Origin: a virus
Length of the DNA stretch: 31,832 bases
Strand: one strand, 5' to 3'
IMG/VR virus record: IMGVR_UViG_3300025890_000078
Coordinates: 1 to 31,832 of that record
Positions within the stretch are counted from its first letter, which is position 1. Every line of letters starts with the position of its first letter. The notes beneath the pieces are model-generated. The model was not told the origin of the DNA. It saw nothing but the letters and a program-made list of their open reading frames with translations, and did not search any database. A program made the translations under genes and the position numbers. Positions 1 through 31,768 of this stretch are shown one piece after another.

Positions 1-2
1 AA

Positions 3-2735: not shown

Positions 2736-3053
2736 ATGGAAAGTTTATTACTAGAAATTTGTGGGAAAGAATTGTATTTTGATATTGAAAGGTTATCTGA
2801 AATATGTAGGATTGAAGATGACTTTAATGTTGAAGAAGAAGTAGTTGACGACTCCATACCTGTAGTTGAGACGATAGGTATACAGTTAGATGTCATCAAA
2901 TATGAGATGTATAGAGAAATGATAGGTTCATTGTTATCATATAATGAACAGATCGACAATAAAATGGGTATGGTAGGTTTGAATTCTACTAGTACACCAT
3001 TTAAATTATCATTTAATACTTTATTAATGAAGGGTATATTAAAAGAATTATAA
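2736..3053 (+). CDS. Hypothetical small acidic protein
   Basis: A 105-residue protein of unknown function. The N-terminal half is helical and acidic (around 29-42 mostly Asp/Glu/Val); the C-terminal half contains a predicted hydrophobic-patterned helix and Met-rich stretches. There is no signal peptide or membrane segment. It lies 43 bases after the HAD-like gene and 23 bases before the first glycosyltransferase, in the same direction. The frame is preferred over the overlapping opposite-strand frame because it continues the directional run and starts with ATG after an A-rich leader. Confidence 0.6.
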   Translation: MESLLLEICGKELYFDIERLSEICRIEDDFNVEEEVVDDSIPVVETIGIQLDVIKYEMYREMIGSLLSYNEQIDNKMGMVGLNSTSTPFKLSFNTLLMKGILKEL

Positions 3054-3076
3054 TAATAAAATAAAATAAAAAAAAG

Positions 3077-4201: not shown

Positions 4202-4221
4202 TAAAAATATAAATATAAATT

Positions 4222-16666: not shown

Positions 16667-17446
16667 TTACTCGGAAGTTACTGATACAGACTCTTTAAGT
16701 TCGTAAACTTTATTGATGTCATCAATATAATTCTCATTATCAAAGTTCATATTTAATAGTTTATCTTTAACTTTGAGTAATTTATCTTTTAAGTCAATAT
16801 CAGAAGATTCAGATAATCTATTATCAATAGTATCTATACATTCTCTTTTTAATGTAGAGAACGTTTCTTCTTTATCATTGTCATCACCATTTAAAATAGT
16901 TCTTATAATTCTTTTTTCGGACTCACTGATGTCGGAGTATTTATCGTTAAACTTATTAACAGATAATTTAGCTAACACACTTGGAGGTAATTCAGAATCA
17001 ATTTTTTCTGTAACAACTTCTTCCTCTTTCTCTAACATCAGATGTTTAATGTAGTTTATAGATTCAGTAATTTTATCTATGTTTAATGGAGACTTAGTAG
17101 TTTTTGATAAAAAATCGATATGTGAATAAAACTCATCATTTTCTTTAATAATATTTTTACCACTTAAGATATTAATTAATTTTTCGTTAGATTCTATTAC
17201 TTTATTTTCGTTTAATGATTTTAATAATGTAATATTTTCCTTAATATAGTCTTTAGCTTCCGATGAATCATCGAACTTTTTTGTTTGTAAATTTTTATAA
17301 ATTAAGTATTGGTTAGTTAGTGTCTTATCTTCTTTAATTAGTTTAACGAATTTAGAAAATAGTTCTTTACCACTTTTTTCTTTTTTTAATATAGACTCTA
17401 TTACAATAGTTTTAAATGTATCTTTTATATTACCGAAATTTTCCAT
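16667..17446 (-). CDS. Helical protein between gp20 and gp21 (gp67 position), possible prohead core component
   Basis: A 259-residue, nearly all-helical, highly charged protein (Lys, Glu, Asp, Ser rich) with coiled-coil spacing in 195-250. It contains several L/I-x-E tripeptides (for example IKE, LNE, ISE, LSE), which are potential prohead-protease sites. It sits directly downstream of the portal gene, the place of T4 core protein gp67. It has its own candidate promoter 12 bases upstream. I infer a core or internal head role; no sequence family is recognised. Confidence 0.62.
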   Translation of the reverse strand: MENFGNIKDTFKTIVIESILKKEKSGKELFSKFVKLIKEDKTLTNQYLIYKNLQTKKFDDSSEAKDYIKENITLLKSLNENKVIESNEKLINILSGKNIIKENDEFYSHIDFLSKTTKSPLNIDKITESINYIKHLMLEKEEEVVTEKIDSELPPSVLAKLSVNKFNDKYSDISESEKRIIRTILNGDDNDKEETFSTLKRECIDTIDNRLSESSDIDLKDKLLKVKDKLLNMNFDNENYIDDINKVYELKESVSVTSE

Positions 17447-17483: not shown

Positions 17484-19403
17484 TTACTCTTTAATGATTT
17501 TATCTATTTCTTTTGTCATATCTTCTATGTTTTTATTTAATTTAGATGCGTCTTTTTCTACTGAATCTAAATCATAGATATGGTCATTTTTTTCTAAACT
17601 TTCAGTAAGTCTTTTAAGGTACATACCTTGATATTTTTTTGTTTTTTCTACGTATTTTCTCCTATTCTCTTCAGTCAATAAGTTATCCTTTTCTTTAGTG
17701 GATTCTACGGCAGTTGCAGTTTCAGCAGCGGCTGCTTCACCACCAGCTAAACTATCAGCTGCGTCTGCAAAATCAGCACCAAAACCACCACCTTCTCCAC
17801 CAACATCACCAACATCACCTTCTTCACCTGAATTTTCAGTATCACTATCAGGTACCAAACTATTAAAGTCACCGTATAATTTATCCACCCTATCGAATAA
17901 ACCAGTTTTCTTAATAATGTTAGCTGTTTGTTCCATTTCCGCAGAAGCAGCTTTTTCTAACCTTTGTTGTTCTAAGTCGTTTCTAATGTCTTCATCTGAC
18001 ATACCCAATATTTCTTTCTTACCTCTAGTCATTGACATCGCACCAAAACCATTACCTGCATCTGCTACTGCATCTTTATATAAGGTAACTTTTAATTGAG
18101 TTTGTTCAATCTTTAACATCTCTGCTTGTGTGGAAGGGTTATTAAGTGATAGTGTAAAACTATTTAATTCATCCTCCAAACCTAAAATATATAAATGTAT
18201 TATAGCAACTTTATTTAATTCTTGTAACATAGATTGCTGAATCCTATTAATTGTCCTTGCGAATCTTATATCTTGTAGTGCTAAATTTTTACCATCACCG
18301 TTAACCTCCTCAAAACCTAAAAATGGTTTAGGAACCCTAAGTGCTGTAAATAATTTTTTCTGTAAATATTGTATATCCGCAATTTCTGAAAGGTTAGTTG
18401 CACCTGGTAAAGTATCTATTGGGCTAGGGGCGTTTGGGTCTCTAACCGGTATAAAGTAATCTTGATCTTGCGCCATTTGATTATATCTAGTATCTATCTG
18501 TCCAGTATTTTGATCAATAACAGGACTCTTTTTAAAGTTGTTAGCAATTTTTTGTACGTATGATGGTACATCTTGCTCATCAATATTACCAACAAAGATT
18601 TTAAATATTCTTCTTTCAGGTGCTCTAGTTACTCTATATATTAACATAGCGTCTTCAGAAAGTAATAGTTGTTTCCATATACGTCTAGCCTTTTCTAACA
18701 TTGATGTACCGTAAGGTAATCTTCTATCGTCACCTAACAATCTAAAATGAGCTATTTGCCAAGCATTAAACTCTATATCTCTTTGACCCCAAACAAATTT
18801 AACGGGATTAAATTGATCCTCTTCTTCGTTTATAGAATTTTCACCGAACCCAGCACTATCTTTCCTAGTGATTTCAATATTTGGTAATTGTTTAACACCA
18901 GTTATACCTTCTTCACTGTCTATACTTAAAAATAAAAAATTATCACCATATTTACACGTATTTCTAGTCCACATAGGTAATGTAGTGTGTATATCTAACC
19001 TATTAAAAAATAAATCTTCTAATATTCTTCTTACTCTTTTACTTTCTGAAAATATATTTATAACCTTATTATCTGGATTTAAAGTAGTGGATTCTTCCAT
19101 CATTATATCTAAAGCTGCTGCGATTTCAGGGAAAAATTCCATCCCTTCAAAATCTGCATAAGAAGCTAATCTAGTAGTTTCATAATAAATTGAGTGTTGA
19201 TAAATTTCATTATCAACCTTTTGCCACATACCAGATAAATACTTATCTTGTTGTTGTTTTAATTTTTCGTAATCGTACTCTTCTTTTGATTTTGTTTTTA
19301 ATAACTCTTTATCGTTTAAAGAATACGTTGACTTATTTTGTGGTCTTTTCATTTCTGGACCAAATAAGTCATTTAACTGTTGAAATATAGTTTTTCTTGC
19401 CAT
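17484..19403 (-). CDS. Portal vertex protein (gp20-like)
   Basis: A 639-residue portal protein that forms the twelve-subunit ring for DNA entry and exit and nucleates the prohead. gp20 hallmarks are SEDAMLIYRVTRAPERRIFK (249-268), FVGN right after it, QDYFIPVRDPN, IDTLPGATNLSEI and ALRVPKPFLGF. It is longer than T4 gp20 (524 residues), with an extra C-terminal part: a Gly/Ala/Asp/Glu low-complexity linker at about 521-568 followed by a charged coiled-coil tail (585-639). The tail is presumably disordered on the inner or outer face. The gene is 53 bases downstream of the terminase gene with a candidate promoter in the gap. Confidence 0.95.
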   Translation of the reverse strand: MARKTIFQQLNDLFGPEMKRPQNKSTYSLNDKELLKTKSKEEYDYEKLKQQQDKYLSGMWQKVDNEIYQHSIYYETTRLASYADFEGMEFFPEIAAALDIMMEESTTLNPDNKVINIFSESKRVRRILEDLFFNRLDIHTTLPMWTRNTCKYGDNFLFLSIDSEEGITGVKQLPNIEITRKDSAGFGENSINEEEDQFNPVKFVWGQRDIEFNAWQIAHFRLLGDDRRLPYGTSMLEKARRIWKQLLLSEDAMLIYRVTRAPERRIFKIFVGNIDEQDVPSYVQKIANNFKKSPVIDQNTGQIDTRYNQMAQDQDYFIPVRDPNAPSPIDTLPGATNLSEIADIQYLQKKLFTALRVPKPFLGFEEVNGDGKNLALQDIRFARTINRIQQSMLQELNKVAIIHLYILGLEDELNSFTLSLNNPSTQAEMLKIEQTQLKVTLYKDAVADAGNGFGAMSMTRGKKEILGMSDEDIRNDLEQQRLEKAASAEMEQTANIIKKTGLFDRVDKLYGDFNSLVPDSDTENSGEEGDVGDVGGEGGGFGADFADAADSLAGGEAAAAETATAVESTKEKDNLLTEENRRKYVEKTKKYQGMYLKRLTESLEKNDHIYDLDSVEKDASKLNKNIEDMTKEIDKIIKE

Positions 19404-19456: not shown

Positions 19457-21259
19457 TTACTTAAAACCAAATAACCAGTTATAATCACCATCATTGTTAT
19501 TGTCATTAGGGTTAGTTGGGATAGTTGAATTATTAGTGAGGGTATTATTATAAAAGGGGTTAGTATAATTTTTATTCACTTTATTTACTTCGTTTGTTGA
19601 ATTAGTATTAACCCAACCGTCTAACATTGCCTTTGTTTGTTTTTCTATGGTTTCTAATTTTTTAAATGTAGTTTGTACTACAAATAGTGGCATTGCCAAC
19701 GCCATAATAATGTCATCGTGATACCCATCCATATGATCTGGTCTACCATTTCTATAAACAAAAGTCTTCAATTCAGAAATCAATCTAACTGATCTTATAA
19801 TCGTTTTACTTTCTCTAATATGTTCTTCTAAATCACTAACCATTTGTAGTCTACTACTACCAACATTAAATCCGGGTACTTTATCACCTTGTTTATAAAC
19901 TGTTTTAGCGTATTTTTCACTAAGTTTCCTACTTTTTGGGTCATCATAATGTAAATATTTATATTCCATTTCTAATAACTTCATTACTGTAGAAACTCCC
20001 ATACCACCTGTTATATCGACAACAGTATATGCTTTATATAGGTTACCATATTTATAAACTATTTCTGCTAATAAATCCGGTGGTAATTTATATTTAAATT
20101 CTGCCACTTGTTCCAAACCATCAAAATCTAAAATAACTATAGTAGAACTATCTTTACCATCACCTCTAGAAACATCAACACCCATAATGTATTTATGACC
20201 CTCTTCAGGTTCTTTCCAAATCCACATAGATTTTTCCATTTCAGCCTTATATTTAGGTTCTTTAACATAATTTTCGTTTTGGTAATCGATATACTCATCG
20301 TCTATTACGTTACCACCTGAAGAAACAAATGAAACATCTAGCTCTTGTGCTATTTGTTTTTTATTACCGTTCATATCTCTACACATTTCCTCATACCAGT
20401 GAGATGTTGCTTTCCACCCATCTTTTAACATCACATCATAATCTTCGATATGTGTACCATCTGTTTCGTATGTGTTACCACTATATTCCCACCTCAACGT
20501 TTCTCTACCTATGGTTTCACATGTGATTACTTCTTCTTCACCTCTCAACCACCTTAATTCCCTATTATATCTAATATCTTCGTGCCACTTCATCTCAATG
20601 ATGTTGAAATTGTTGTCACCTTGTTTTGCACCGTCATATGTTTTATAGTATAAAGCGTCTTGACCATTAGGTGTGGATATTAACGTAACTTTACCACCTG
20701 TACCCAATGACGTTAAAGCGGCACCGAATACCTCTGCACCGTTATCTATAAAGGCTGCCTCATCCATAACTAAAAATGTTGGTGTATATCCCCTTAAAGC
20801 ATCTTTTGAAGTTGCTAGTGCCTTAACCTCACATTTAGTGGTTTTTGTTTTTATGTGTCCCTTAGCTTCTATATCTAAATAAGAGTCCCCTTCTGATATT
20901 CCCCATACCCATTCAGGTATTTGATCAGTAAAATCTTTAATTTTTTTAAGAAATTCTTGAGCCAACGTTTGTTTATTGGCTAAAACTAAGACCTTCCATG
21001 GGTTATTAGGGTCACAAAACGCAATTTTTATTGCGATATATGCTGCAGTAGTAGTAGATACACCTGCTTGTCTTGGTTTAGTTACAATGTTACGATTATT
21101 TTCTTCGTAAGATTTAATTATCTGTTTTTGTTTATAAAATAGTTTAAATGGTACAAATCCTTTTTGGGTTAAGTCATATGTTTTAAGAAATGTTTCGACA
21201 GCGTATATAGGATCACCTAAACATTTGGCAAATATTTTTAATTTTTCATTCCTATCCAT
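19457..21259 (-). CDS. Terminase large subunit (gp17-like)
   Basis: A 600-residue DNA-packaging motor with ATPase and headful nuclease domains. The ATPase domain has an adenine-binding Q motif region (FKLFYKQKQII, 38-48), a non-standard P-loop KPRQAGVSTT (61-70) like gp17's SRQLGKTT class, Walker B FLVMDEAAF (162-170, D166/E167) and coupling motif STPNG (195-199). The RNase H-like nuclease domain shows the metal Asp in IMGVDVSRGDG (358-368, D362), VVDITGG (413-419) and GYHDDIIMA (512-520, D515/D516). The C-terminal ~50 residues are Asn/Thr-rich and probably disordered. It matches T4 gp17 in length (610). It starts 10 bases after the previous gene stop, so the two are co-transcribed. Confidence 0.96.
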   Translation of the reverse strand: MDRNEKLKIFAKCLGDPIYAVETFLKTYDLTQKGFVPFKLFYKQKQIIKSYEENNRNIVTKPRQAGVSTTTAAYIAIKIAFCDPNNPWKVLVLANKQTLAQEFLKKIKDFTDQIPEWVWGISEGDSYLDIEAKGHIKTKTTKCEVKALATSKDALRGYTPTFLVMDEAAFIDNGAEVFGAALTSLGTGGKVTLISTPNGQDALYYKTYDGAKQGDNNFNIIEMKWHEDIRYNRELRWLRGEEEVITCETIGRETLRWEYSGNTYETDGTHIEDYDVMLKDGWKATSHWYEEMCRDMNGNKKQIAQELDVSFVSSGGNVIDDEYIDYQNENYVKEPKYKAEMEKSMWIWKEPEEGHKYIMGVDVSRGDGKDSSTIVILDFDGLEQVAEFKYKLPPDLLAEIVYKYGNLYKAYTVVDITGGMGVSTVMKLLEMEYKYLHYDDPKSRKLSEKYAKTVYKQGDKVPGFNVGSSRLQMVSDLEEHIRESKTIIRSVRLISELKTFVYRNGRPDHMDGYHDDIIMALAMPLFVVQTTFKKLETIEKQTKAMLDGWVNTNSTNEVNKVNKNYTNPFYNNTLTNNSTIPTNPNDNNNDGDYNWLFGFK

Positions 21260-21269: not shown

Positions 21270-22130
21270 TTAAAACGCTACTACCTTACCCTTTTCCCAA
21301 TCATCGTAATTTGGACCTAGTTTATATGTTACATTAGAACCACCACCAACTTTTTCTATAATACCTTGTTTATTTACTGCTGACCAAAAAGTTGCGAATT
21401 GACCTCTTGAATATTCTGACCCTATATATTCTAAGAAACCTCTTTTTGTTTTTCTTTCCGCATTTACGTCATCTGTCATATAATCTATTAATTGTCTAAC
21501 CATCGAACCCTCTTTTTTTTGTAAACTATATCCACCACTTTTATTAACTAATGTTAATTCATTTTCTTTGGTGATATTATTCACAACATCAGATATTTCG
21601 GTATGAAATCTATATTTTGTTCTTTTATTAAATATAGATAACCTTTTTATGGCTTCCACACCTGAATAAGTATTTAAAATATCTTCGATAACTAAAAAAC
21701 TATCATTCATCATTTGGTGGTTAATTTTATCCATAGTTTTCATATCCTCCCAACCATCGAATTTATTACGTAATGAAAATAAATTATTAAACCTTTGATA
21801 TGGGGTAGACATATTCATAATTCTATCAAATTCTGATTGTAAGAAAAACTCAACTATCTCACTATATTTATATCTATCCACAACAACTTCTTCATTAATA
21901 CCCCACCAATCAATATTATACATTGTTTTATATAATAACTTATTATTTTTTATATCGTTTAAAGTTAGTTTATAAATATTAAAAAATAAGTTCATCACCT
22001 TTATTGGGTGTTTAATATTTTTAATGTCTTCAACAAACACCTCAACCATCGGTGTAATGTCTTTATTAAATTTTAAAGTAGTTTCTTTAATTAGTTTACG
22101 ATATTGTATCTCAGTTAACCTTATTTTCAT
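21270..22130 (-). CDS. Hypothetical protein immediately upstream of terminase (gp16 position)
   Basis: A 286-residue, mostly helical protein. It begins with a short basic leader MKIRLTEIQYRKLIKE (1-16), similar in style to the leaders of several neighbours. The C-terminal 70 residues (…GFLEYIGSEYSRGQFATFW SAVNKQG…) look like a winged-helix unit: helix, helix, then VGGGSNVTYKL as a beta wing. T4 places the small terminase gp16 directly before gp17, so a DNA-recognition role is possible, but the length (T4 gp16 has 164 residues) and leader argue for caution. Only 1 base separates it from the upstream gene. Confidence 0.62.
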   Translation of the reverse strand: MKIRLTEIQYRKLIKETTLKFNKDITPMVEVFVEDIKNIKHPIKVMNLFFNIYKLTLNDIKNNKLLYKTMYNIDWWGINEEVVVDRYKYSEIVEFFLQSEFDRIMNMSTPYQRFNNLFSLRNKFDGWEDMKTMDKINHQMMNDSFLVIEDILNTYSGVEAIKRLSIFNKRTKYRFHTEISDVVNNITKENELTLVNKSGGYSLQKKEGSMVRQLIDYMTDDVNAERKTKRGFLEYIGSEYSRGQFATFWSAVNKQGIIEKVGGGSNVTYKLGPNYDDWEKGKVVAF

Positions 22131-22131
22131 T

Positions 22132-23235
22132 TTAAATATTTCCTTGTAAGTTATAATTAAAATATTCCCAAGTCTTTGTAGAATCCGGATAAAAATAATT
22201 CATATCTGGTAACGATACTAACTCATATTCTTCATATAAAACTTCTGATAACATACTTATGTAATCGGAATAATATTCTCCAGGCATTTCACTTGTTGAT
22301 TCTAAAGATTCGATTAAATACTTATAAAATATATCCGTAATATCAAAATAAATTACTTGTCCTGTAATATCACCATCTTTATTTTTCACATCTTCCCACT
22401 TACCTTTAGAACCTAAAAGTTCTTCTATACTATCTTTAAGGTTATTAAATAACTCATCCTCACCAGCCTGTTCATACGCCCACCTATATTGGGATGCCAA
22501 TTCACGACGTAATTCATCAAAGATAAGTTCCTCATCTATTAATCTTAATATAGTATCAGTATCATTTACTATATCTTCTGTTAGTGTATGGAACTGTCCA
22601 TCATCCATAGAATATTCACTCATTTCTTGACCAATAAAATCACCTTCTTTAATATGATCTTTTATGTGTTTTATACTTTCTTCATCAAGGTTATCTACAA
22701 TATCACTAGACCAATCCACATCATAATAACCATATAATTCAGCCCAATCTTCTCCCAGTATACGTTCAGCGTAATCTCGATACTTTTTATCAACTAACAT
22801 TGTGAACTCACTCCAATGATCAATAGTTAGATAAAACTTATCCCCTTTTTTTACTACATCATTAAACAATTGTGGAAAGGCTTGTTCATCCTTCAGATAT
22901 TTGTCGTACCACCCAGTTTTCCCAAACATATCACTAATTTCGGACCCATACATTTTACCCCTTAAAGTAACGAATTCAATATATTCTAATGGGTCCTCAC
23001 CTTTATCCATAAAATATTTAAATATAAACTGAATAGCGTCATTTTCATCTACATTAAAATCAGATGACATCATATAAGGTAATAACTCTAATTTCTCCTC
23101 CTCTGTATAATCATCTTTTTCGAGTTCTTCATCACTAAGTTCATAATCTAAATAACTGTAAACAGCGTTTTTAAGTTTTTTATATCTAGATAAATCAATA
23201 TATTCTAATAGTATTTTTTTAATGTTTCCTTTCAT
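22132..23235 (-). CDS. Hypothetical acidic protein
   Basis: A 367-residue protein, strongly acidic and aromatic (many Asp, Glu, Tyr, Trp). The N-terminal 20 residues are basic and amphipathic (MKGNIKKILLEYIDLSRYKK), ending in L-L-E at 9-11. The rest is predicted helical with no motif I know. It starts a transcription unit after the terminator at 23264 and has a near-match promoter motif 7 bases before its start. It could be an internal head protein delivered through the leader; this is inference. Confidence 0.62.
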   Translation of the reverse strand: MKGNIKKILLEYIDLSRYKKLKNAVYSYLDYELSDEELEKDDYTEEEKLELLPYMMSSDFNVDENDAIQFIFKYFMDKGEDPLEYIEFVTLRGKMYGSEISDMFGKTGWYDKYLKDEQAFPQLFNDVVKKGDKFYLTIDHWSEFTMLVDKKYRDYAERILGEDWAELYGYYDVDWSSDIVDNLDEESIKHIKDHIKEGDFIGQEMSEYSMDDGQFHTLTEDIVNDTDTILRLIDEELIFDELRRELASQYRWAYEQAGEDELFNNLKDSIEELLGSKGKWEDVKNKDGDITGQVIYFDITDIFYKYLIESLESTSEMPGEYYSDYISMLSEVLYEEYELVSLPDMNYFYPDSTKTWEYFNYNLQGNI

Positions 23236-23242
23236 CTTACAT

Positions 23243-23250
23243 ATAAATAC
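23243..23250 (-). promoter_or_regulatory. Candidate late-promoter motif, one mismatch (GTATTTAT)
   Basis: This minus-strand motif differs at its first base and is only 7 bases before the start codon, but it lies exactly between a terminator and the next gene, the position expected for a promoter. Confidence 0.3.
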
Positions 23251-23263
23251 TTAGTATAAACAA

Positions 23264-23286
23264 AAAATCCCACTCAGTGGGATTTT
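23264..23286 (-). terminator. Rho-independent terminator
   Basis: A perfect 10-bp stem AAAATCCCAC/GTGGGATTTT (23264-23273 with 23277-23286) and 3-base loop. On the minus strand it is followed by six T residues. It lies 24 bases past the stop of the 484-residue gene. Confidence 0.88.
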
Positions 23287-23310
23287 ATTATATTTTATTG
23301 GTTGTAATAA

Positions 23311-24765
23311 TTACAGATATTTGTGTAATATTTCTAGTTTTTCAAAATCTTTATCATCTAAGGCTTTATTTATAAGACTTTGAATTTCAGATTTAGACAT
23401 TTCAGAGTAGTCTACATCTTCAGTTTCTGGTTCAATATCATCTTCTACTTCAATACCAAGATTATCTAATATATCTCCCATATCATCGGACTCTATATTA
23501 TCAATCGTATCATCAATAATATCATCTAAACCTTCACTTGGTTCTTCATAGTGTAAATCTTTTAATGTTTTAATTACTTCTTTACATTTCTCACTACCTA
23601 CCAATATCTCTTTCATAAACTCATGAAATTGTTTAGCTGGTAACTTACTTAATTCATGAAATAACCATTGTTTAATATCGTAATCATCCGGATCGATACA
23701 ATCTAAGAATTTTTCCCACATACCTGGACCTAATCTCATTCCCCATATCTCACCTTCTACTGTGTCAGCTTTTTCAATCACTTCTCTCTGTTCATCAAAA
23801 TCTAAATGACCATCAGCCCAATTGATAGCTGACAATTCTAAAGTACCTTTAATAAGTTCATGAACTAAAAGTGGGAAAACCCATGCGTTAGCTACTACTA
23901 CAGGTATTTCATCACCTTCCTCAACGTTTACTTTTTCCATCTCTTCTTCCTCATCTTTATCTTCTGCTTTTTCAGCTTTTCTCCATACAATTTCTTCCGT
24001 ACCACCTGCAGTACCACCCATTACACTTTCTGGTATAATCCAATATTGGAAATCGGCTAATGACATAAGTTTACCGTACAAAATCATAAGTCTTGGATTT
24101 AATTTATCTAATTCATCTGCTACCATATGAAAAATGTAATGACCTTTTTTAGAGGCTCCTTGCATTAAAGCGTTTATAACCCTTCTTTTATCTACCTCCA
24201 TCTCTAACTGCTCCATTCTTTCCGCACTTTTAGGTGCTTTAGGTAAGTTAAAATCAGAATCGTAATTTTCCTCTTCCTCTTCCTCTTCTTCTTCATCACC
24301 ACCGAAGTTTAAATCAGAACCAGGAGGGGATAAATTAGCTTCTAACATTTGATCTGGGATATCGAATTCTTCAGATACTATATCTACCGCCAATTTTTCT
24401 AATTTATCCTTATATGTAGTTTCTATTTGACCAATTTCTTGCATTATCTGAAACATTTCATTCATCATACTAGGGCTTATGTTTTGAACCCCATGATATC
24501 TTTTAACTTTATTGATGATTTCTTTAAATCTCTTACCGGCTAATTTTTCGGAATAGTTTTGATTTTCTGATCCAGATGGTACTGATTTACTTTTACCAAA
24601 AATATGTTCACCACTTCTTAGTTTTCTTTCGATACCTGGATTCATCCTTTCAGGGTGTTCAGGATCATACTCTATCGCTTCTGTAATTCTTTTGTTTCTA
24701 ATTTTTTCTTTTAGAACTCTTTTAGTTACATTGTTTATAATATTTTTTTTCATATTTTTTTTCAT
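23311..24765 (-). CDS. Hypothetical acidic protein with basic N-terminal leader
   Basis: A 484-residue protein. Residues 1-32 are very basic (MKKNMKKNIINNVTKRVLKE, then KIRNKRITEA), ending at I-T-E/A. The middle includes an uninterrupted run of nine Glu (about 157-165), from a GAA/GAG microsatellite, and a globular-looking helical domain (190-400, …LMILYGKLMSLADFQYWIIPE…). The C-terminus is again Asp/Glu-rich. No enzyme motif is recognised. It is 6 bases downstream of the next gene and closes an operon. Together with its neighbours it looks like a packaged head protein or a core component. Confidence 0.62.
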   Translation of the reverse strand: MKKNMKKNIINNVTKRVLKEKIRNKRITEAIEYDPEHPERMNPGIERKLRSGEHIFGKSKSVPSGSENQNYSEKLAGKRFKEIINKVKRYHGVQNISPSMMNEMFQIMQEIGQIETTYKDKLEKLAVDIVSEEFDIPDQMLEANLSPPGSDLNFGGDEEEEEEEEENYDSDFNLPKAPKSAERMEQLEMEVDKRRVINALMQGASKKGHYIFHMVADELDKLNPRLMILYGKLMSLADFQYWIIPESVMGGTAGGTEEIVWRKAEKAEDKDEEEEMEKVNVEEGDEIPVVVANAWVFPLLVHELIKGTLELSAINWADGHLDFDEQREVIEKADTVEGEIWGMRLGPGMWEKFLDCIDPDDYDIKQWLFHELSKLPAKQFHEFMKEILVGSEKCKEVIKTLKDLHYEEPSEGLDDIIDDTIDNIESDDMGDILDNLGIEVEDDIEPETEDVDYSEMSKSEIQSLINKALDDKDFEKLEILHKYL

Positions 24766-24771
24766 ATTTTT

Positions 24772-25512
24772 TTATGAACCATGAATACCAGTTGTCCACA
24801 TCATCCAAGACTCCTTAGCTAACTTTTCAAATAACCTTTGAACTCTTCTGGTTTCCGTATTACCATCCCCATTTTCTATTCTAGTTAAAGCTGCCCTAAT
24901 TAATATATCCCTAATTTTTTGTTTATTACCTAATAAACGATTTATTATTTCTAATTGTTCTTCTAATGAATCTATCTCATATTCATTATCATCTTCATAA
25001 TCATCTTCATCCTTAAGAGATTCAATTCGACTTTCTAATGACTCAATATCATTACTCATACCATATAACCACCTATGTAAATCATCCTTAGTCCAATTAA
25101 GGATAGGTGCTGCACCGAACATATTAATTAAACCACTTTCTCTAATATCTTCTAAATACCTTACAACATCTCTTCTTTCTTGACCCGTCATCTCTTCTAT
25201 AATATGAGCCTCTATACCATCGTATTGTTCTCGTAAGATATCATTTTTCGTTAATTTTCTAACACCACCATTTTTTTTGAAATTAATGTATTCCATTAAT
25301 TCACCTTTCTTTATTTTGGGGTTATTTTTTTGTTTTACTTTTTCAGGGATATCATCAAAGTCGGTATCATCAGAAAATTCTTTAGCTCTATCACACCATT
25401 CTCTTTCTTCTTTATTAGAAGCATCATCACATTTAGCATAAAAGAATCGTTGCTGTGCCTTTGAAGCGAACTTTTCATTTATCAAACCTTTTACGATATC
25501 TCTTTTTTTCAT
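24772..25512 (-). CDS. Hypothetical protein with SKAQQRFFYAK motif
   Basis: The 246-residue protein begins with a short basic leader (MKKRDIVKGLINEK), then FASKAQQRFFYAKCDDASNK (14-33) and AKEFSDDTDFDDIPEKV (43-59). That combination resembles the small phage/bacterial domain that reads S-K-A-Q-Q-R-x-x-Y-A-K followed by A-x-E-F-A-x-x-T (DUF3008-like). The rest is helical and charged, with a heptad region about 155-200. Function of that domain is unknown. It starts 1 base after the preceding stop. Confidence 0.62.
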   Translation of the reverse strand: MKKRDIVKGLINEKFASKAQQRFFYAKCDDASNKEEREWCDRAKEFSDDTDFDDIPEKVKQKNNPKIKKGELMEYINFKKNGGVRKLTKNDILREQYDGIEAHIIEEMTGQERRDVVRYLEDIRESGLINMFGAAPILNWTKDDLHRWLYGMSNDIESLESRIESLKDEDDYEDDNEYEIDSLEEQLEIINRLLGNKQKIRDILIRAALTRIENGDGNTETRRVQRLFEKLAKESWMMWTTGIHGS

Positions 25513-25513
25513 T

Positions 25514-26113
25514 TTACTTTCTAGTATTTAGAAATTTTTTGAGTAATTTTTTTGTTGATTCATTAACAGTTATAGTTCTAACAGTACCTTTATTGTCTTT
25601 AACTCCTACTGTTTGACCTCTTTTAACTTTATCAGATTCTAAATCGTTAGTTAAGTTAGATGCGTCATCATATACGGACATCATTTCTTCTTCAGAGACC
25701 ATATCGTTATTTAAATCTAATACACCATCACCATCATCATCTTGATCAACACTACTTGCGATACCATCATTGTCTCTATCATAAGGACCATATTTACCAC
25801 TTTGTGCATCAACCGCCATAAACTCTTCTTCAGAACCTTTAACATTATCAAAGATTTTATCACCATAAAGTTTATATAACCTATTAACTATTGCTGTAGG
25901 ATTTTTTCTCATATATCTAAGAACCGATGGTGGAATTTCTTCACCATATTTTCCAAACACACCTCTCATACCCCTTTCTTTAGGAGAAGATTTATAATCT
26001 TTTCTACTATAAGTGTCTCTCATTTCATGTTGTTCATCTAGGTAGTTTTCCATTAACTTACGTCTAGTCGCTCTTTTAATTTCGCTTTCGGAAATTCTTA
26101 TTTTCTTTTTCAT
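25514..26113 (-). CDS. Hypothetical calcium-binding-type protein
   Basis: A 199-residue protein. The leader MKKKIRISESEIKRATRRKL (1-20) is basic and amphipathic and is followed by M-E-N-Y-L-D-E, a possible L/I-x-E protease site. Residues about 110-140 hold YDRDNDGIASSVDQDDDGDG followed by VLDLNND, a run of D-x-D-x-D-G loops like thrombospondin type 3 or dockerin calcium sites. The C-terminus is basic. It is separated from neighbours by 1-2 bases. Likely a structural or packaged protein; the family is not recognised. Confidence 0.64.
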   Translation of the reverse strand: MKKKIRISESEIKRATRRKLMENYLDEQHEMRDTYSRKDYKSSPKERGMRGVFGKYGEEIPPSVLRYMRKNPTAIVNRLYKLYGDKIFDNVKGSEEEFMAVDAQSGKYGPYDRDNDGIASSVDQDDDGDGVLDLNNDMVSEEEMMSVYDDASNLTNDLESDKVKRGQTVGVKDNKGTVRTITVNESTKKLLKKFLNTRK

Positions 26114-26115
26114 CT

Positions 26116-26514
26116 TTATGTGTTTATTAATTCTTTATTATAATTTAAAACCATATCTTTTTCATATAGTTTGTCATTTACTGATTCAATATCTTCCCCA
26201 AAAGAGAAAAATAATCTTTTTTCAGGATATTCATCATACCCTTCCATATTTTCCCAAGACATAGCCACAATTCCATCTACAGCGTCCCACATTGCAAAAG
26301 AATCTGATTCTTGTACTAAATCTAATTTTAATGTGGTGGTTAATTGCCCTGTCTTTTTAATAAATTTCCCTTCAGGTGGTTCTGGATTTCCAGAAGATGG
26401 GTACGAGTCCCAACCTTCACCATCAATATCAGATATACTATCTGAAAAAAGGAATTCATATAAAAAATTCCCTTTCCAGTCCTGACCAATTTTATTTATG
26501 TAGACTAATTTCAT
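26116..26514 (-). CDS. Conserved-looking phage hypothetical protein
   Basis: A 132-residue alpha/beta protein. Its pattern of YINKIGQDWKGNFLYEFLFS (5-24), W-D-S-Y-P…G-x-P-E-P-P (35-48), LVQESDSFAMWDAVDGIVAM (66-85) and RLFFSFGEDIESVNDKLY (101-118) matches a protein I have seen widely in T4-like phages but which has no assigned function; that recognition is from memory, not a search. There is no leader, unlike its neighbours. Its start ATG overlaps the previous gene stop by one base. Confidence 0.68.
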   Translation of the reverse strand: MKLVYINKIGQDWKGNFLYEFLFSDSISDIDGEGWDSYPSSGNPEPPEGKFIKKTGQLTTTLKLDLVQESDSFAMWDAVDGIVAMSWENMEGYDEYPEKRLFFSFGEDIESVNDKLYEKDMVLNYNKELINT

Positions 26515-28196
26515 TATCTAAACATACCTTTTCTTCTAAATGAACGTCTAGGTGGTTTAGAACTACCTTCTCTATCATTAATAGCCTTTATTTTAGGTTT
26601 TACTTTAGGTTTCTTAATGGTTCTCCATTTATCACCTTCACCTGGTTTAGTAGTTGGTTGTTTAATTCCTGGTTCCTTAACAGGTGCTTCAGTACCCATA
26701 ATAGAATCATAATCCATTTCGATATATCCCTCATCTGAACCCATTTCAAAGTCTAATTCACCATCAGAATCTGCATCCATATCTAATCTATTTGGAATAC
26801 CGTCAAAATCTCTATCTAAATCGTTTGTTGCTGAAAGATAACCTTGTCCCGTTGCAATAGCGTCCATAACATCCATATCTTCATCCATATATTGTTTTTT
26901 ACCTCTACGCATCATTTTAAAATCTTCGGCATCGATCTTACCATTTTTATTTCTATCTAATTTATATTGTTTACCTTTAAGTTTTTCATACATTAAATCA
27001 TCTTCTAACATATATTCATCTCTATCGTGTTTACCGTAATTAGTATGTGACATATCATGGTGTTCTTCCATACAAGATTTACAACCTTCACCTAAACACT
27101 CTTCACATATTGTATGATTTTCTTTTAACACTTTTTTAAGAGACTTTTTTGTTGCGTTTTTAAGAAAAGATTCCATTAGTTGTTTTTTAGAAAAAACTCT
27201 AGATTCTTTAATCTCTTCTTCTTCGTTTTCAGATAACTCACTATCAAATGGGTCAACTTCTTCAGTCTCTTCAGCGTCTAAATCAACAACCTCTTCATCA
27301 CCCGTTGAGAATTCATCCCCTTCTCCAGCTTCCTCATCATCACCTTCTATTTTTGATATAATATCCTCAACATCCTCATCAGGAATTTCTTCCCAATCAA
27401 TTGCTGAAATGATAGAATTAATAACGTACTTATCTAACTCAGCGTCTGGATCATCTTTATCTCTTAATAGTTGTCCTATTTTACCTGTATATTTTTGTAT
27501 TTTTTTTGTAGTATCATCATCTTCACCCATAGACTCTTCATCACCCATAACATCTCCACCTTCTTCATCTGCGAATGGGTCTTCACCTTCATCTTCCATA
27601 CTGAATTCATCAACTTCGACTTCATCTTCTACTGGTTCATCTACTGGTGGTGTTGGCGTATCAACTTTAATTACTTTCTTTTGTTCTTCAACATCTTCAA
27701 GTTCTTCATCTAACAATTCTTCATTACCCTTTTCTTCTACCTCCATTTCTGCAGGATCCATTTCAGTGTCTTCAGTTTCTTTTATTTTCACTAAACCACT
27801 AGCGTTAGCTTCTTTTACCTCGACACCATCTGATTCAAAAAGGTTTGTACCGGTTTCGATACCGTAAGACTCATTTAACATATCAAATTTCATATTTAAA
27901 TGTTTCAATGCTTCAGCATAAGAATGATATCTTTCATCATATTTGTTTTTAACACCACCCACATACTCAAAATCCTCAGATACCAAAGTGCCAGAAGTTT
28001 TTTCAGTTGTTTTAATAAAGTAGTTATGATTTTCTCTTATTATACCATAAACGATTCCGTTTGGTCCTTTCTTAATGAAATCTATTTCTGATAATGAAGT
28101 ACTCTCATTAAGGGTTGTCATTCTACCCATAAGGTCGGTAATCCTATTGATTTTATCCTGACCTTTTAAAGTTTTTGGGTTAGTAAATTTTTTCAT
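26514..28196 (-). CDS. Acidic EF-hand protein with prohead-protease-like site
   Basis: A 560-residue protein, taking the MKKF start at 28196, which follows an A-rich leader typical of the window; a further upstream ATG at 28274 would overlap the preceding gene by 53 bases and is rejected. The N-terminal 31 residues are basic and end in L29-N30-E31/S32-T, the same tetrapeptide as the capsid cleavage site. A long Asp/Glu-rich region (about 125-325) follows, then a Cys/His-rich stretch CEECLGEGCKSCMEEHHD, a canonical EF-hand LDRNKNGKIDAEDFKMM (about 26918-26968), and DRDFDGIPNRLDMDADSDGE of thrombospondin-3 type. The end is basic. Probably a calcium-binding head or core protein. Confidence 0.68.
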   Translation of the reverse strand: MKKFTNPKTLKGQDKINRITDLMGRMTTLNESTSLSEIDFIKKGPNGIVYGIIRENHNYFIKTTEKTSGTLVSEDFEYVGGVKNKYDERYHSYAEALKHLNMKFDMLNESYGIETGTNLFESDGVEVKEANASGLVKIKETEDTEMDPAEMEVEEKGNEELLDEELEDVEEQKKVIKVDTPTPPVDEPVEDEVEVDEFSMEDEGEDPFADEEGGDVMGDEESMGEDDDTTKKIQKYTGKIGQLLRDKDDPDAELDKYVINSIISAIDWEEIPDEDVEDIISKIEGDDEEAGEGDEFSTGDEEVVDLDAEETEEVDPFDSELSENEEEEIKESRVFSKKQLMESFLKNATKKSLKKVLKENHTICEECLGEGCKSCMEEHHDMSHTNYGKHDRDEYMLEDDLMYEKLKGKQYKLDRNKNGKIDAEDFKMMRRGKKQYMDEDMDVMDAIATGQGYLSATNDLDRDFDGIPNRLDMDADSDGELDFEMGSDEGYIEMDYDSIMGTEAPVKEPGIKQPTTKPGEGDKWRTIKKPKVKPKIKAINDREGSSKPPRRSFRRKGMFR

Positions 28197-28221
28197 ATTA
28201 TATTGTTTTATTGTTTTATTT

Positions 28222-28542
28222 TTATCCGTTTGTTGGTAAACCTGTTTTAATATTAACAAATTGCCACACTTCATTATGTGAATCCCCAGATATTAATCCA
28301 GTTTTTACTTTAGTTTGTGGCGCAATAGGGTTACCTAATAACAACACTCCACCTACTGGTGTACTTGTATTACCATCTACTGTTATTTCTAATGTTTCTC
28401 CTAATACACCTGTTACAACTACACCATTGATTGTCATTGTAGTGGCGCTACTAAAATAAACTGCGTCATAAACAAAGTTATCGAAATCTGCAGTGACATC
28501 TGTATGTATAATAGTGTAATTTCCGGTTAAATATGTTCCCAT
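28222..28542 (-). CDS. Small beta-rich structural protein
   Basis: A 106-residue Thr/Val/Gly-rich protein with alternating hydrophobic residues throughout (TMTINGVVVTGVLGETLEI…), which suggests an all-beta fold such as a capsid decoration or head-fibre domain. There is no signal peptide. The plus-strand frame over the same region is a mirror with no promoter. A candidate late promoter lies 15 bases before its start. Decoration is inference; a tail-adaptor role is also possible. Confidence 0.64.
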   Translation of the reverse strand: MGTYLTGNYTIIHTDVTADFDNFVYDAVYFSSATTMTINGVVVTGVLGETLEITVDGNTSTPVGGVLLLGNPIAPQTKVKTGLISGDSHNEVWQFVNIKTGLPTNG

Positions 28543-28557
28543 AATAATGTTTATTAA

Positions 28558-28565
28558 ATAAATAT
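28558..28565 (-). promoter_or_regulatory. Candidate late-promoter motif ATATTTAT
   Basis: Exact motif on the minus strand, 15 bases before the start of the small beta protein. The sequence between them, TTAATAAACATTATT, resembles the leaders of the protease, portal and nucleotidyltransferase genes. Confidence 0.45.
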
Positions 28566-28601
28566 TGCGTTTTTAATAAAAAAACACAATTTAAACTCTA
28601 T

Positions 28602-29393
28602 CTACTTTTTTAATAATCTAAAGGACTCATCTAAAGTTAAAGATTTATCATAAGAAATAGTCTCTATTTCACTTAACTTATCTAAGTACCCCATTCTTCT
28701 TAATACTTTAAAAGATATATTCTCAAAAGAGTACTCCCCTTCTCTATCTAATCCAGATTGTCTCATTTTCTTTATTTTACTTTTTAAGTTTTGTATTTTT
28801 CTAATGGTTTTATCGTAATCATCACTTTTGTACATAAAATAAATGTCTTCTATTGCATCTATTATATTGTTAACTTTTTCAGTTACTTTTTTTGCATCAA
28901 TAGTTTTATCACCCTTAATTGGTTTAACTATCCATCCATCCCACATAATAGAGTAAATTCCACTAGAAACGTGTGGTTCATGAGTATCTTGCATATAGAG
29001 TTCAACGTCATAACCTTTTATAGTTATGTCGTGTTTCTCATTCCATAAATTTTTCTTTGAATTAAAATACTCTTTTACGAGTTCTTCATTTTCATCTACA
29101 TCTTCAAACTTAACTAAGATATGTAAATCTACATCAGAATATTTAGACCAATTGTAATTAGCTAAACTTCCTGTTAATATAATATCGTCTATGTCTACCC
29201 AACCGACATTAAGTGTCTCAAAGAAATCGTCAGCTATCATAAGTAACCTAGTTCGTATATCCTTATGAATATGTTGAGTTTCGTCAAATATCTTTGGGTT
29301 AAGGGTGTCTCTTACTTGAAAAGATGATAAGTCTATTGTTTCTTTTTCTAAAATTTCACTTACCTCTTGTTCTTCAATTCTTCTAATTTCCAT
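28602..29393 (-). CDS. Nucleotidyltransferase (Pol-beta superfamily)
   Basis: A 263-residue soluble enzyme-like protein. The superfamily core is clear: ILTGSLANYNWSKYSDVDLH (72-91) contains the Gly-Ser of helix N and the D87-x-D89 metal pair, and VELY (130-133, E131) supplies the third acidic position. IYSIMWDGWIVKP (147-159) follows, and the C-terminal third (about 175-263) is helical and basic. Such proteins are frequent in T4-like phages and transfer a nucleotide to an unknown acceptor (protein, RNA or small molecule); no HEPN partner of a MNT/HEPN toxin system is adjacent. The double motif 18 bases upstream suggests late expression. Confidence 0.84.
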   Translation of the reverse strand: MEIRRIEEQEVSEILEKETIDLSSFQVRDTLNPKIFDETQHIHKDIRTRLLMIADDFFETLNVGWVDIDDIILTGSLANYNWSKYSDVDLHILVKFEDVDENEELVKEYFNSKKNLWNEKHDITIKGYDVELYMQDTHEPHVSSGIYSIMWDGWIVKPIKGDKTIDAKKVTEKVNNIIDAIEDIYFMYKSDDYDKTIRKIQNLKSKIKKMRQSGLDREGEYSFENISFKVLRRMGYLDKLSEIETISYDKSLTLDESFRLLKK

Positions 29394-29411
29394 AAAATAA
29401 TGTTCTTTAAT

Positions 29412-29425
29412 ATAAATATAAATAT
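29412..29425 (-). promoter_or_regulatory. Candidate late-promoter motif, two overlapping copies of ATATTTAT
   Basis: On the minus strand ATATTTATATTTAT reads as two copies overlapping by two bases, 18 bases before the nucleotidyltransferase start. Confidence 0.4.
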
Positions 29426-29447
29426 AATAGTTTATGGTTAAACATTA

Positions 29448-29466
29448 AATAAAAGGAAACGGGCGT
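29448..29466 (+). repeat. Left arm of 19-bp inverted repeat around a membrane-protein gene
   Basis: AATAAAAGGAAACGGGCGT here is the reverse complement of 29874-29892 except at one position (18 of 19 match). Its GC-rich core (AACGGGCGT) is unusual in this AT-rich DNA. It lies just after the stop of the enclosed gene. Confidence 0.7.
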
Positions 29467-29476
29467 ATTTTAGTTA

Positions 29477-29842
29477 TTAGTCTTGTAGTATATTTTTACT
29501 ACTATCTTTTTTATTATCTAATTTTTCGTGTATAACATTAAACTCTCTACACATATGATCCACCAGTTTATCTGATCTAGAATCTATTCTTTTATCTACT
29601 TTAGATATCATATCATCTAAAACTTCTATTTTTCTATCATATATATTGTGAATATCTTCCACATTTCTATCTATTAATCTATAATTGTTTTCTATGTCTT
29701 CTCTAAGACTTCTTTCTATGTCATTCATTGTTTCAACATCAACCTTACCTTTTAACCTATTTAGGACATTTACAATAGATAATACTATTGCAACCACACC
29801 TAAAGTAGACAAAACTGACACTGTTATTAAAATTGTTTCCAT
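29477..29842 (-). CDS. Membrane-anchored coiled-coil protein
   Basis: A 121-residue protein with one N-terminal transmembrane helix (about 5-27, ILITVSVLSTLGVVAIVLSI), a basic residue cluster right after it, then a long charged helix with heptad spacing (35-112). The topology would put the coiled coil in the cytoplasm or periplasm, depending on the anchor orientation. It resembles, in layout only, phage spanin-like or lysis-accessory proteins and membrane-tethered scaffolds. No lipobox is present. The entire gene is enclosed by a 19-bp inverted repeat (29448-29466 and 29874-29892), which is unusual here. Confidence 0.65.
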   Translation of the reverse strand: METILITVSVLSTLGVVAIVLSIVNVLNRLKGKVDVETMNDIERSLREDIENNYRLIDRNVEDIHNIYDRKIEVLDDMISKVDKRIDSRSDKLVDHMCREFNVIHEKLDNKKDSSKNILQD

Positions 29843-29870
29843 AATTTTTATTTTTTTATTTTTATTATTC

Positions 29871-29892
29871 GAAACGCCCGTTTCTTTTTATT
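29871..29892 (+). repeat. Right arm of 19-bp inverted repeat with embedded small hairpin
   Basis: Positions 29874-29892 pair with the left arm. In addition 29871-29884 form a self-complementary GAAACG-CC-CGTTTC stem followed on the plus strand by five T residues. The last two bases of the arm fall in the stop codon of the KTSG gene. On the minus strand no T run follows, so it is not a typical leftward terminator. Confidence 0.65.
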
Positions 29893-30187
29893 ATAATGTT
29901 TCTTTAATATTGTTAATCTGTTCGACCATAGGGGTAACGTCTACTTTATTAGGGGACTTTTCATAATTATGTCCCTTAACTATAGTATTTAATACCTTCC
30001 CTTGACTTTCAGCCAATTCGAATTTACTATACTCTTCGTATGTCACATCACTATATACATACTGAATACCTGATTTAAATATTACGGCTAATTTTTTTTT
30101 ACCTTTAATATACTTTGAACCTAATACATTACTGGATTCGTATAGACATTCTATTGATCCGTTTTCTTCGTGTTTTAATAAAATCAT
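29891..30187 (-). CDS. KTSG-domain protein
   Basis: A 98-residue protein. Residues 33-75 (LAVIFKSGIQYVYSDVTYEE, then YSKFELAES QGKVLNTIVKGHNY) fit the KTSG domain: a strand with F-x-x-G-x-x-Y-x-Y, then Tyr, then A-x-S-x-G-x-x-x-N. KTSG domains occur alone or fused to lysyl-tRNA synthetase and in many phages; their function is unknown. The start is separated by 3 bases from the upstream small gene. It is transcribed with the 74-residue gene. Confidence 0.72.
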   Translation of the reverse strand: MILLKHEENGSIECLYESSNVLGSKYIKGKKKLAVIFKSGIQYVYSDVTYEEYSKFELAESQGKVLNTIVKGHNYEKSPNKVDVTPMVEQINNIKETL

Positions 30188-30190
30188 AAT

Positions 30191-30415
30191 TTAATCTTTA
30201 AATAGTTTATAGGAATGAATATTTTTCATTTCATATACAATACCACTTATGGTGGCTGGGTTATCTACTGAAACAGTTTCTTCTTCGCTTATTATAACAT
30301 AATTACCCGTTATAATCATTGCGGAATCCATATATTCCATTCTTGTAGTTGGTTTATTGTCATCATCTTTTAATAATAATACAATTTTTCTAAATTTTGG
30401 TGCTGATGGTATCAT
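30191..30415 (-). CDS. Hypothetical small protein
   Basis: A 74-residue protein with three likely beta strands (FRKIVLLLKD, AMIITGNYVIIS, GIVYEMKNIHSY). No membrane segment or motif is recognised. It is 3 bases from the KTSG gene and is likely its operon partner. It starts downstream of the Hsp20 terminator, but no match to the late motif precedes it, so it may use another promoter type. Confidence 0.58.
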   Translation of the reverse strand: MIPSAPKFRKIVLLLKDDDNKPTTRMEYMDSAMIITGNYVIISEEETVSVDNPATISGIVYEMKNIHSYKLFKD

Positions 30416-30455
30416 AAAAACAAATATAATAATTAATTTTTAAAAAATCAATAAC

Positions 30456-30490
30456 AAAAAAACCACACCCTATAAAGATGTGGTTTTTTT
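30456..30490 (-). terminator. Rho-independent terminator after Hsp20 gene
   Basis: A 12-bp stem pairs 30456-30467 (AAAAAAACCACA) with 30479-30490 (TGTGGTTTTTTT) around an 11-base loop. T runs follow it on both strands, so it could work bidirectionally. It lies 19 bases past the Hsp20 stop codon. Confidence 0.85.
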
Positions 30491-30508
30491 TATTAACTAA
30501 AGAAAAAA

Positions 30509-30994
30509 TTACTCTATAACAATTTTTCTAGTATGTTTTTTTGGGTTACTTTTCTTCTCTTTAGGGAAGAAAATTGTTGCTATACCATTTTCTACCTTAG
30601 CGTGAATTTCTTCACAAACAATGTTGTTTGGTAATTTAAAAGTTCTATTGAATTTAGTAGAATGGTACTCTTTTGAGATATATGTACCTGTTTCCTTTTT
30701 ATCACCTTCTTTTCTATCACCTACAACTAATAAGTTTTCTTTTTCCAATGATATAGTTATTTCTTTTTTTGTGAATCCAGGTGTTAATAGTTCATATCTA
30801 AATGACCATTCATCTTCATATATATTAGTAACTGGTAGATTATAAGAATATTCTTTATTATCCATTTTATTTTTTATTACATCACTTACCCTTTGTTTAA
30901 TTTCAGTTGGGTCAACACTGAAAGTACTAAAAAAGAAATCATCGTTTAAAAAATCTCTAAAGTTAAAGTTATTGTTAAATTTTTTGTAATCCAT
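30509..30994 (-). CDS. Small heat-shock protein (Hsp20 family)
   Basis: A 161-residue ATP-independent holdase chaperone. The alpha-crystallin domain spans about 53-146, with the characteristic FTKKEITISLEKENLLVVG (74-92) and AKVENGIATIFFPK (132-145). A C-terminal I158-V-I160 is the I-x-I motif that locks oligomers. The N-terminal region is Phe/Asn-rich (FNNNFNFRDF), as expected for substrate binding. Hsp20 genes are common in cyanophages and other T4-like marine phages. It may help fold capsid or tail proteins late in infection; the transcript ends at a strong terminator. Confidence 0.95.
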   Translation of the reverse strand: MDYKKFNNNFNFRDFLNDDFFFSTFSVDPTEIKQRVSDVIKNKMDNKEYSYNLPVTNIYEDEWSFRYELLTPGFTKKEITISLEKENLLVVGDRKEGDKKETGTYISKEYHSTKFNRTFKLPNNIVCEEIHAKVENGIATIFFPKEKKSNPKKHTRKIVIE

Positions 30995-31041
30995 TTTTAA
31001 ATTTTTATTTTTTTATTGTTATTATTTTATAATTTCGTATT

Positions 31042-31084
31042 TGACAAAATATATACCATTAGATAGTATTATGTCATTTTGTCA
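31042..31084. repeat. Inverted repeat TGACAAAAT … ATTTTGTCA in intergenic gap
   Basis: Two 9-base arms (31042-31050 and 31076-31084) are perfect reverse complements separated by 25 bases. They straddle the gap between the methyltransferase stop codon (inside the right arm) and the Hsp20 gene. Could be an operator or weak hairpin; GC content is too low for a clear terminator. Confidence 0.35.
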
Positions 31085-31609
31085 GGGATTATTAACATGT
31101 TTTCCTTTTATCTTATAATAGTTAACATCTATCTCTAACTCTTCTAACTTATTTTTTGGTATGTAACATTCACCTGTTTTTAAAAAATGTTCCATCCTTT
31201 TTTTACCAAAGTTAATGTTAAAATCTACTAAGTCAATACCAATAAACTTTCTTTTATTCTTTAATGACGCTACACCAGTCGTAGAAGACCCTGCGAATGG
31301 ATCTAAGACAATATCACCTTCTTCGCTACCTATTCTAACAAACCAGTCAGCTAAATCAACGTGAAAGGGTGCTGGGTGTAATATACTTGGGTTAGTTTCT
31401 GAAGGTGTTATAACTACATTATGTGGTAAAGAACCTTTTACGTTCAAATTCCTCATTTCTGATTCATAAACCCCATCTCTAGAATTTATAGTTGTAACTG
31501 GACTCTGAAATCTTTTTTTAGTTACTTCAGAATGTTCAGTTCTACAATTATCAGCCACAAATTTAGGTTTATTGGAATTGGAAAAATGGAAAACATATTC
31601 ATTTTTCAT
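31082..31609 (-). CDS. DNA methyltransferase, N4-cytosine/N6-adenine type (3' part only)
   Basis: The C-terminal portion of a site-specific DNA methyltransferase. It has the AdoMet-binding motif DPFAGSSTTG (coded near 31276-31306) preceded by HPAPFHVDLADWFVRIGS and followed by KRKFIGIDL, which is the order of the beta class, where the catalytic motif DPPY lies N-terminal to the AdoMet motif. The catalytic half would lie beyond position 31609 but is absent, because the reading frame runs into non-phage sequence there. The upstream Met in frame at 31666 is within the foreign segment and is not a true start. It likely protects phage DNA from restriction or marks it. Confidence 0.8.
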   Translation of the reverse strand: MKNEYVFHFSNSNKPKFVADNCRTEHSEVTKKRFQSPVTTINSRDGVYESEMRNLNVKGSLPHNVVITPSETNPSILHPAPFHVDLADWFVRIGSEEGDIVLDPFAGSSTTGVASLKNKRKFIGIDLVDFNINFGKKRMEHFLKTGECYIPKNKLEELEIDVNYYKIKGKHVNNP

Positions 31610-31611
31610 CA

Positions 31612-31768
31612 AGTAATGAAGAAAGTAGTTCATCATCATCGGAAGCATCAGCAGTAGAACTTCCAAAAACTAGAAAACGAAAAATTGTTTCAAAAAATAG
31701 AATACCTCGTAAACAACCACCAAAGAAACGAGTACGAAAAGCATCAGATACATCCGATGGAACAACAT
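31612..31768 (+). other. Eukaryotic-like exon fragment with splice donor (foreign segment)
   Basis: A plus-strand frame open from 31567 encodes a Ser-rich stretch (S-S-N-E-E then six Ser, from 31606) and then basic clusters (KTRKRK, PRKQPPKKRVRK) like nuclear-localisation signals. It is interrupted at 31768 by GT-AAGT (31769-31774), a canonical spliceosomal 5' donor, with a TGA at 31786-31788 if unspliced. Codon choice and composition differ from the phage genes. Positions 31769-31832 would then be intron. This is most likely chimeric or contaminant DNA joined near 31600-31612. Confidence 0.55.

Follow-up and report, generated by a model that had tools for sequence, protein, structure and literature searches.

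Short N-terminal leaders ending at a prohead protease consensus on unrelated proteins of uncultured T4-like phages: candidate capsid-targeting sequences

The virus record IMGVR_UViG_3300025890_000078 (31.8 kb, 30% GC; the whole stretch of 31,832 nt is called the window below) is a piece of a T4-like phage genome. Adjoining its terminase gene on the upstream side is a block of genes whose products carry a short, basic N-terminal leader closing in L/I-x-E, each followed by a body unrelated to the others. Such genes occur throughout the genome, roughly 25–35 in each relative, and the block is one local cluster of them. From comparison of the sequences, the leaders are most probably capsid-targeting sequences of a T4-like phage that would be cut by its gp21-type prohead protease, a reading to which we assign a probability of about 80%.

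A close gp21 is encoded by at least 166 virus contigs, and phages of this group probably infect Bacteroidota. Four large relatives (G001–G004, 127–254 kb) were read through, and dozens of their genes start with sequences such as MKIKLTESQYKRLLNE, MKKIVRLTESDLQRIVKRVIKE, MKNIIRKILKE and MSRLGKLKRQLIEE. Four leader patterns were written after inspection of these genes and then tested on held-out contigs; a de novo motif search on N-termini converged on the start Met and was discarded. Within G001–G004, the four patterns have 130 matches in the first 35 residues vs. 30 in all remaining sequence, and the main one, motif A, has 64 vs. 13 (a 31-fold density, p=2e-42). At held-out loci, with the genes that fetched the contigs removed, the counts are 99 vs. 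10 (p=9e-69) and 28 vs. 2 (p=4e-22). Overall, held-out contigs included, leader motifs are ~30–90 times as dense at N-termini as elsewhere. No leader set is present in Flavobacterium phage immuto (0 N-terminal matches vs. 3 elsewhere), an isolate whose protease is related, and its virion data are therefore uninformative here. A slightly wider definition gives 432 leader proteins with 240 body families from 186 loci; in the four relatives, 25–35 genes per genome carry leaders, among 138–265 genes of at least 80 residues. Aligned, 128 unrelated leader proteins agree on MKxxIxLTESxLxxIxxRxxxE and on almost nothing beyond it.

The common segment of one leader type, subtype B (KIIRLTESDLxRIVKRVIxE), ends exactly at the T4 gp21 consensus L/I-x-E. 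This subtype was fetched from viral and cellular collections by a DNA pattern for KI[IVMT]RLTE[S..]DL, and its columns 11–20 lie outside that search pattern. At least 120 stretches of viral contigs contain the pattern, and the larger cellular collection, 257 Gb of genomes, has four matches. The cellular matches were rejected as leaders: one is internal, one is in a 7-residue frame, one is in a 23-residue frame, and one is at residue 34 of an unrelated frame. The matches listed include 122 distinct viral proteins with 93 unrelated body families, all but one of them (121/122) with a Met no more than 5 codons upstream. Among these, 97% have I, V, or L in column 18 and 88% have E in column 20, with no residue fixed in column 19 between them; from column 21 onward the entropy rises to background. 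Synonymous codons vary at the fixed residues, so that selection is on the protein and not on the DNA. The hydrophobic core of a secretion signal (~8–12 residues after the basic start) is absent from subtype B, which is charged throughout (KIIRLTESDLTRIVKRVINE).

The leaders also co-occur with the head protease. Of 19 contigs of at least 117 kb with the leader, 17 encode gp21 and 16 encode gp23; the two without gp21 are also without gp23, and for that reason are probably missing the head-module region. The window itself encodes gp21 (Peptidase_S77) together with gp23, a capsid protein with a matching site of its own. These belong to a minus-strand, T4-like head module (terminase, portal, gp21-type protease, probable scaffold, and gp23-type capsid protein), with a gene order matching the portal-gp21-gp22-gp23 order of T4 (slashes mark candidate cleavage sites):

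19457–21259, minus strand: large terminase (phrog_2)
17484–19403, minus strand: portal protein (phrog_213)
16667–17446, minus strand: conserved head-module gene with VIE/S near its start (MENFGNIKDTFKTIVIE); start near-identical in listed orthologues
15414–16103, minus strand: gp21-type prohead protease (Peptidase_S77, E=1.1e-24; phrog_207, 3.4e-40)
13954–15309, minus strand: putative scaffold/core protein in the gp22 position, between the protease and capsid genes as in T4
13742–13921, minus strand: predicted propeptide of the major capsid protein (gp23 family, phrog_138), residues 1–60, ending LLNE/S

The capsid-protein site, A[LM]LNE/[SA]T at residue 60, is found in 12 of 12 distinct relatives. 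The protease is presumed to be the cutter of the leaders, and has ILIE near its own start. Gene 16667–17446 probably encodes a core protein; the scaffold candidate 13954–15309 had no family match in PHROGs.

A first-pass annotation of the window had described six genes that start with a short basic stretch closing in L/I-x-E, and a seventh, 26116–26514, without one. The reading frames and leader strings of the six were confirmed, as was the lack of a leader in the seventh. The leaders, with two probable ones outside the block, are as follows:

22083–22130, minus strand: leader of gene 21270–22130, MKIRLTEIQYRKLIKE/T, with an earlier L-T-E also present
21270–22082, minus strand: body of the same gene, helical in the predicted model
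23203–23235, minus strand: leader of gene 22132–23235, MKGNIKKILLE/Y
22132–23202, minus strand: body of the same gene, an ordered fold in the predicted model
24679–24765, minus strand: leader of gene 23311–24765, MKKNMKKNIINNVTKRVLKE/KIRNKRITE/A, with two candidate sites (...RVLKE/KIRNKRITE/A)
25474–25512, minus strand: leader of gene 24772–25512, MKKRDIVKGLINE/K
26048–26113, minus strand: leader of gene 25514–26113, MKKKIRISESEIKRATRRKLME/N
28104–28196, minus strand: leader of gene 26514–28196, MKKFTNPKTLKGQDKINRITDLMGRMTTLNE/S
26116–26514, minus strand: leaderless contrast gene, orthologues likewise leaderless by eye (MNLVYINKIGQNWKGN...)
29346–29393, minus strand: probable leader of nucleotidyltransferase-like gene 28602–29393, MEIRRIEEQEVSEILE (orthologues MDIKKITEQEVSDLIKKE)
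12032–12064, minus strand: probable leader of gene 11219–12064, MRIKKKYVLLE/S

The same annotation had suggested aligning the leaders across related phages. For gene 21270, in a 17-sequence alignment of orthologues the leader varies (KIIISENQYKRLLSE, KVIINNRQHLLLVE) and the closing [LIM]xE stays. A basic start with [LI]xE is found in 17 of 18 orthologues of gene 23311. In the G002, G003, and G004 orthologues, the leader of gene 26514–28196 ends in INE or LNE. The mechanical open reading frame of that gene starts at 28274, but its orthologues in G003 and G004 begin at the Met at 28196. The leader ending of gene 11219–12064 is the same in 16 of 16 orthologues, and gene 28602–29393 matches NTP_transf_2 and phrog_36119 (6e-49). 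These two genes are probably additional members of the leader set, and both lie outside the block; the earlier description covered one local part of the genome-wide set seen in relatives.

Taken alone, the window is weak evidence for leaders beyond chance, and the matter is barely decidable there; it is the comparison with relatives that decides it. By shuffling of the first 44 residues after the Met, a basic start with [LI]xE within 34 residues has a chance of 9–32% per gene for the six window genes, and the leaderless gene 26116 passes this loose test by accident; the joint P for the block, 1e-7, is for these reasons too fragile to lean on. Shuffled N-termini yield about half of the loose-test matches. 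Two further descriptions held in part: the bodies are strongly acidic in four of the six genes (-12 to -75) but not in 21270 (+4) or 25514 (-2), and the family consensus is significantly amphipathic (p=0.003), whereas no single window leader is.

Leaders and bodies behave as separable units. In G002 and contig L065, the gene 25514 leader sits directly on the gene 24772 body. In contig L029 (2872–4818), orthologues of 22132 and 21270 make up one 648-codon frame, joined by a leader-like segment (MKIRLTGSQYRNLIKE); this may instead reflect a lost stop. AlphaFold models of two bodies have confidences of 84.8 (21270) and 88.0 (22132), with a predicted local distance difference test score (pLDDT) of 56–63 for the 21270 leader and <50 for residues 1–12 of 22132; in these models, a low-confidence leader beside an ordered body is as would be expected of a removable tag. 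Comparison of the six bodies with Pfam, PHROGs, and NCBIfam gave no convincing family except a weak EF-hand match in 26514. A PDB fold search with the 22132 body gave no match and one with the 21270 body nothing confident (best E 0.2; KAT6A winged helix, probability 0.91, E 1.1), although the C-terminal part of the modeled 21270 body may be a winged helix. Most bodies of leader proteins likewise match no family; the recognizable ones include an M23 peptidase, lysozymes, LysM and peptidoglycan-binding domains, thioredoxins, and a GNAT, and endolysin and peptidase PHROGs are among them.

Leaders that differ in sequence but are analogous (MKLTERKLRNLVKEVLKE, MKIQEQKLRGIIKEEIKKIVNE) are found clustered around the head genes of LR756508, an uncultured phage of 484 kb with a capsid protein 33% identical. 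In the 140 kb read, 17 of 23 matches are within 41 kb around the capsid gene, and one of the other six is a repeat count from an overlap between the stretches covered. A zeta-toxin-like kinase in this phage carries a leader.

The closest precedent is T4 itself, where propeptides of 10–19 residues send internal proteins into the core, ten leader residues are enough for targeting, and gp21 cuts after L/I-x-E; such sequences have been proposed to let T4-like phages add varied head proteins (PMC9026906). The T4 internal proteins Ip1–3 have the leader alone in common and each blocks different restriction enzymes, with at least 10 such proteins reported among T4 relatives (PMC12373910). The genes described here resemble those for T4 IPI, IPII, IPIII, and Alt in having an N-terminal leader on unrelated bodies, an L/I-x-E end, a gp21-type protease, and a gp23-type head. 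They differ in having other leader sequences, in several subtypes and usually longer (11–31 residues), and in numbering 25–35 cargo genes per genome vs. three internal proteins in T4. T4 IPII starts MKTYQEFIAE/A, with which the present leaders have only MK and I-x-E in common, too short a match to decide descent. The differences from T4 lie in the leader sequence, the number of subtypes, and the scale; in its way of working the present case would be like T4.

Similar addresses are known elsewhere. The anti-restriction protein DarB of phage P1 has an N-terminal signal of which 30 residues suffice to carry a reporter into the head (PMC9024508); the leaders here would be head addresses of the same kind. 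That paper concerns one protein, whereas the tag here is found on hundreds of families and closes with a protease consensus. In phiKZ-like phages, many head proteins are cut after x-x-E by a gp21 relative (PMC9026906), and phiKZ, 201phi2-1, and SPN3US share with the present phages a gp21-type protease, combined in those phages with a large injected protein load. Their sites are S/A-x-E, whereas P3 here is I, L, or V and the leader is conserved; the account of these phages that was consulted describes no common leader.

The capsid-targeting proposal of the first-pass annotation is strengthened by the presence of gp21, the capsid L-x-E site, a common leader on hundreds of unrelated proteins, the end of conservation at [IVL]-x-E, and the co-occurrence with gp21, all of them indirect lines of evidence. 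The leader sequences, their N-terminal placement, their boundary, their exchange between bodies, and their association with the protease are observed; from these we infer core binding, cleavage, packaging, and injection. The leaders would bind the prohead core during head assembly, so that the proteins are enclosed in the prohead, and the gp21-type protease would cut after [L/I/V]-x-E and release the body. Most of the cargo would then exit with the DNA at the next infection, while some may remain as head or core proteins. A wider claim, favored with less assurance, is that the leader is a portable head-loading tag that a large, uncultured section of the T4-like phages uses generally. Each genome would have dozens of unrelated proteins, and the phages together hundreds of families, that are packed in the capsid, cut by gp21, and carried into the cell along with the DNA; the tag by itself would list a hidden and mostly uncharacterized injected proteome.

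Several points weigh against capsid targeting. The leader is not recognizably the T4 sequence MKTYQEFIAE, and the leader test was failed by some orthologues of 22132 (10/16) and 24772 (9/14), in part because of uncertain starts. A few of the bodies could be structural. No isolate and no proteome with the leader was found: leader peptides had no tblastn match among isolates and plasmids, 23-residue queries being insensitive, and a search of open-access text for the leader strings found no paper.

Of the alternatives, the one that survives best accepts targeting to the prohead and cleavage there, with bodies that are mainly scaffold, core, or head-structure parts rather than injected effectors. 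The head genes 16667 and 11219, the scaffold, and the protease carry such sites too, and genes 23311 and 26514, which adjoin the terminase, are conserved and strongly acidic. However, the ~25–35 leader genes per genome are mostly far from the head block and variable between relatives, and 240 body families with enzyme domains are unlike a core structure; we regard this explanation as unlikely. Slightly less probable again is a docking peptide for another phage hub (e.g., a host-takeover, membrane, or tail complex), with L/I-x-E as a helix cap. E is common in helices, and some bodies are peptidoglycan hydrolases, whose place of action could be another one. Against this reading are the free residue between a fixed hydrophobic and a fixed E, the abrupt stop of conservation, the same consensus in the capsid protein's own site, and the co-occurrence with gp21. 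The many neighboring copies and several leader subtypes might also suggest a functionless relic of a duplicated gene family, its bodies diverged or replaced, but the conservation of amino acids despite codon variation, together with the sharp boundary, requires current selection on the leader, and this origin seems very improbable. A composition artifact, in which the K/I/L/E-rich proteins of a phage with 30% GC would frequently happen to start basic and reach L/I-x-E, fits the chance levels of the loose test in the window but is contradicted by the specific motifs, the hold-out tests, and the immuto control, and can be given almost no weight.

If the leaders are capsid-targeting sequences, they bear on a class of proteins that is normally hard to find. 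Phage proteins injected with the DNA act early, before host defence can be outpaced, and their bodies have no common features. With the leader as a packaging address, a sequence search would list candidates by the hundreds, most of them without a known domain, in phages that have not been grown. Ready-made leaders would also be at hand for loading chosen proteins into the heads of laboratory phage strains, and a phage could recruit a new head protein by fusion of ~20 codons.

Some smaller features of the leader genes can be added. In gene 24772–25512, SKAQQRFFYAKCDDASNKEEREWCDRAKEFSDDTDFDDIPEK directly follows the leader; it is kept in some orthologues and swapped (TEKQRRWACDQM...) in others. 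Genes 25514–26113 and 26514–28196 contain DxDxDG-type repeats (YDRDNDGIASSVDQDDDGDGVLD; LDRNKNGKID) with weak EF-hand matches, a sequence pattern that suggests calcium binding by these two candidate head proteins. Several leader-bearing paralogues of gene 11219 seem to be present per genome (e.g., G003:141269–142414 and 127833–129086; G001 and G003 relatives), possibly an expanded cargo family. In LR756508, positions 25736–31615 of locus L124 hold consecutive leader genes (MRLKEILLEN, MRLKNVLLKEQ, MKLKGILKEA, MKFKELLKEQ) whose bodies have a YRGT-like motif; identification of these as ADP-ribosyltransferases, like T4 Alt, had no Pfam support and is not claimed. In the window, the structural module is flanked by regions 30509–30994, 31082–31666, and 1–5001, which by reading of the sequence appear to encode a small heat-shock-like protein, a partial DNA methyltransferase, and GDP-mannose dehydratase-like, PhoH-like, and glycosyltransferase-like proteins.

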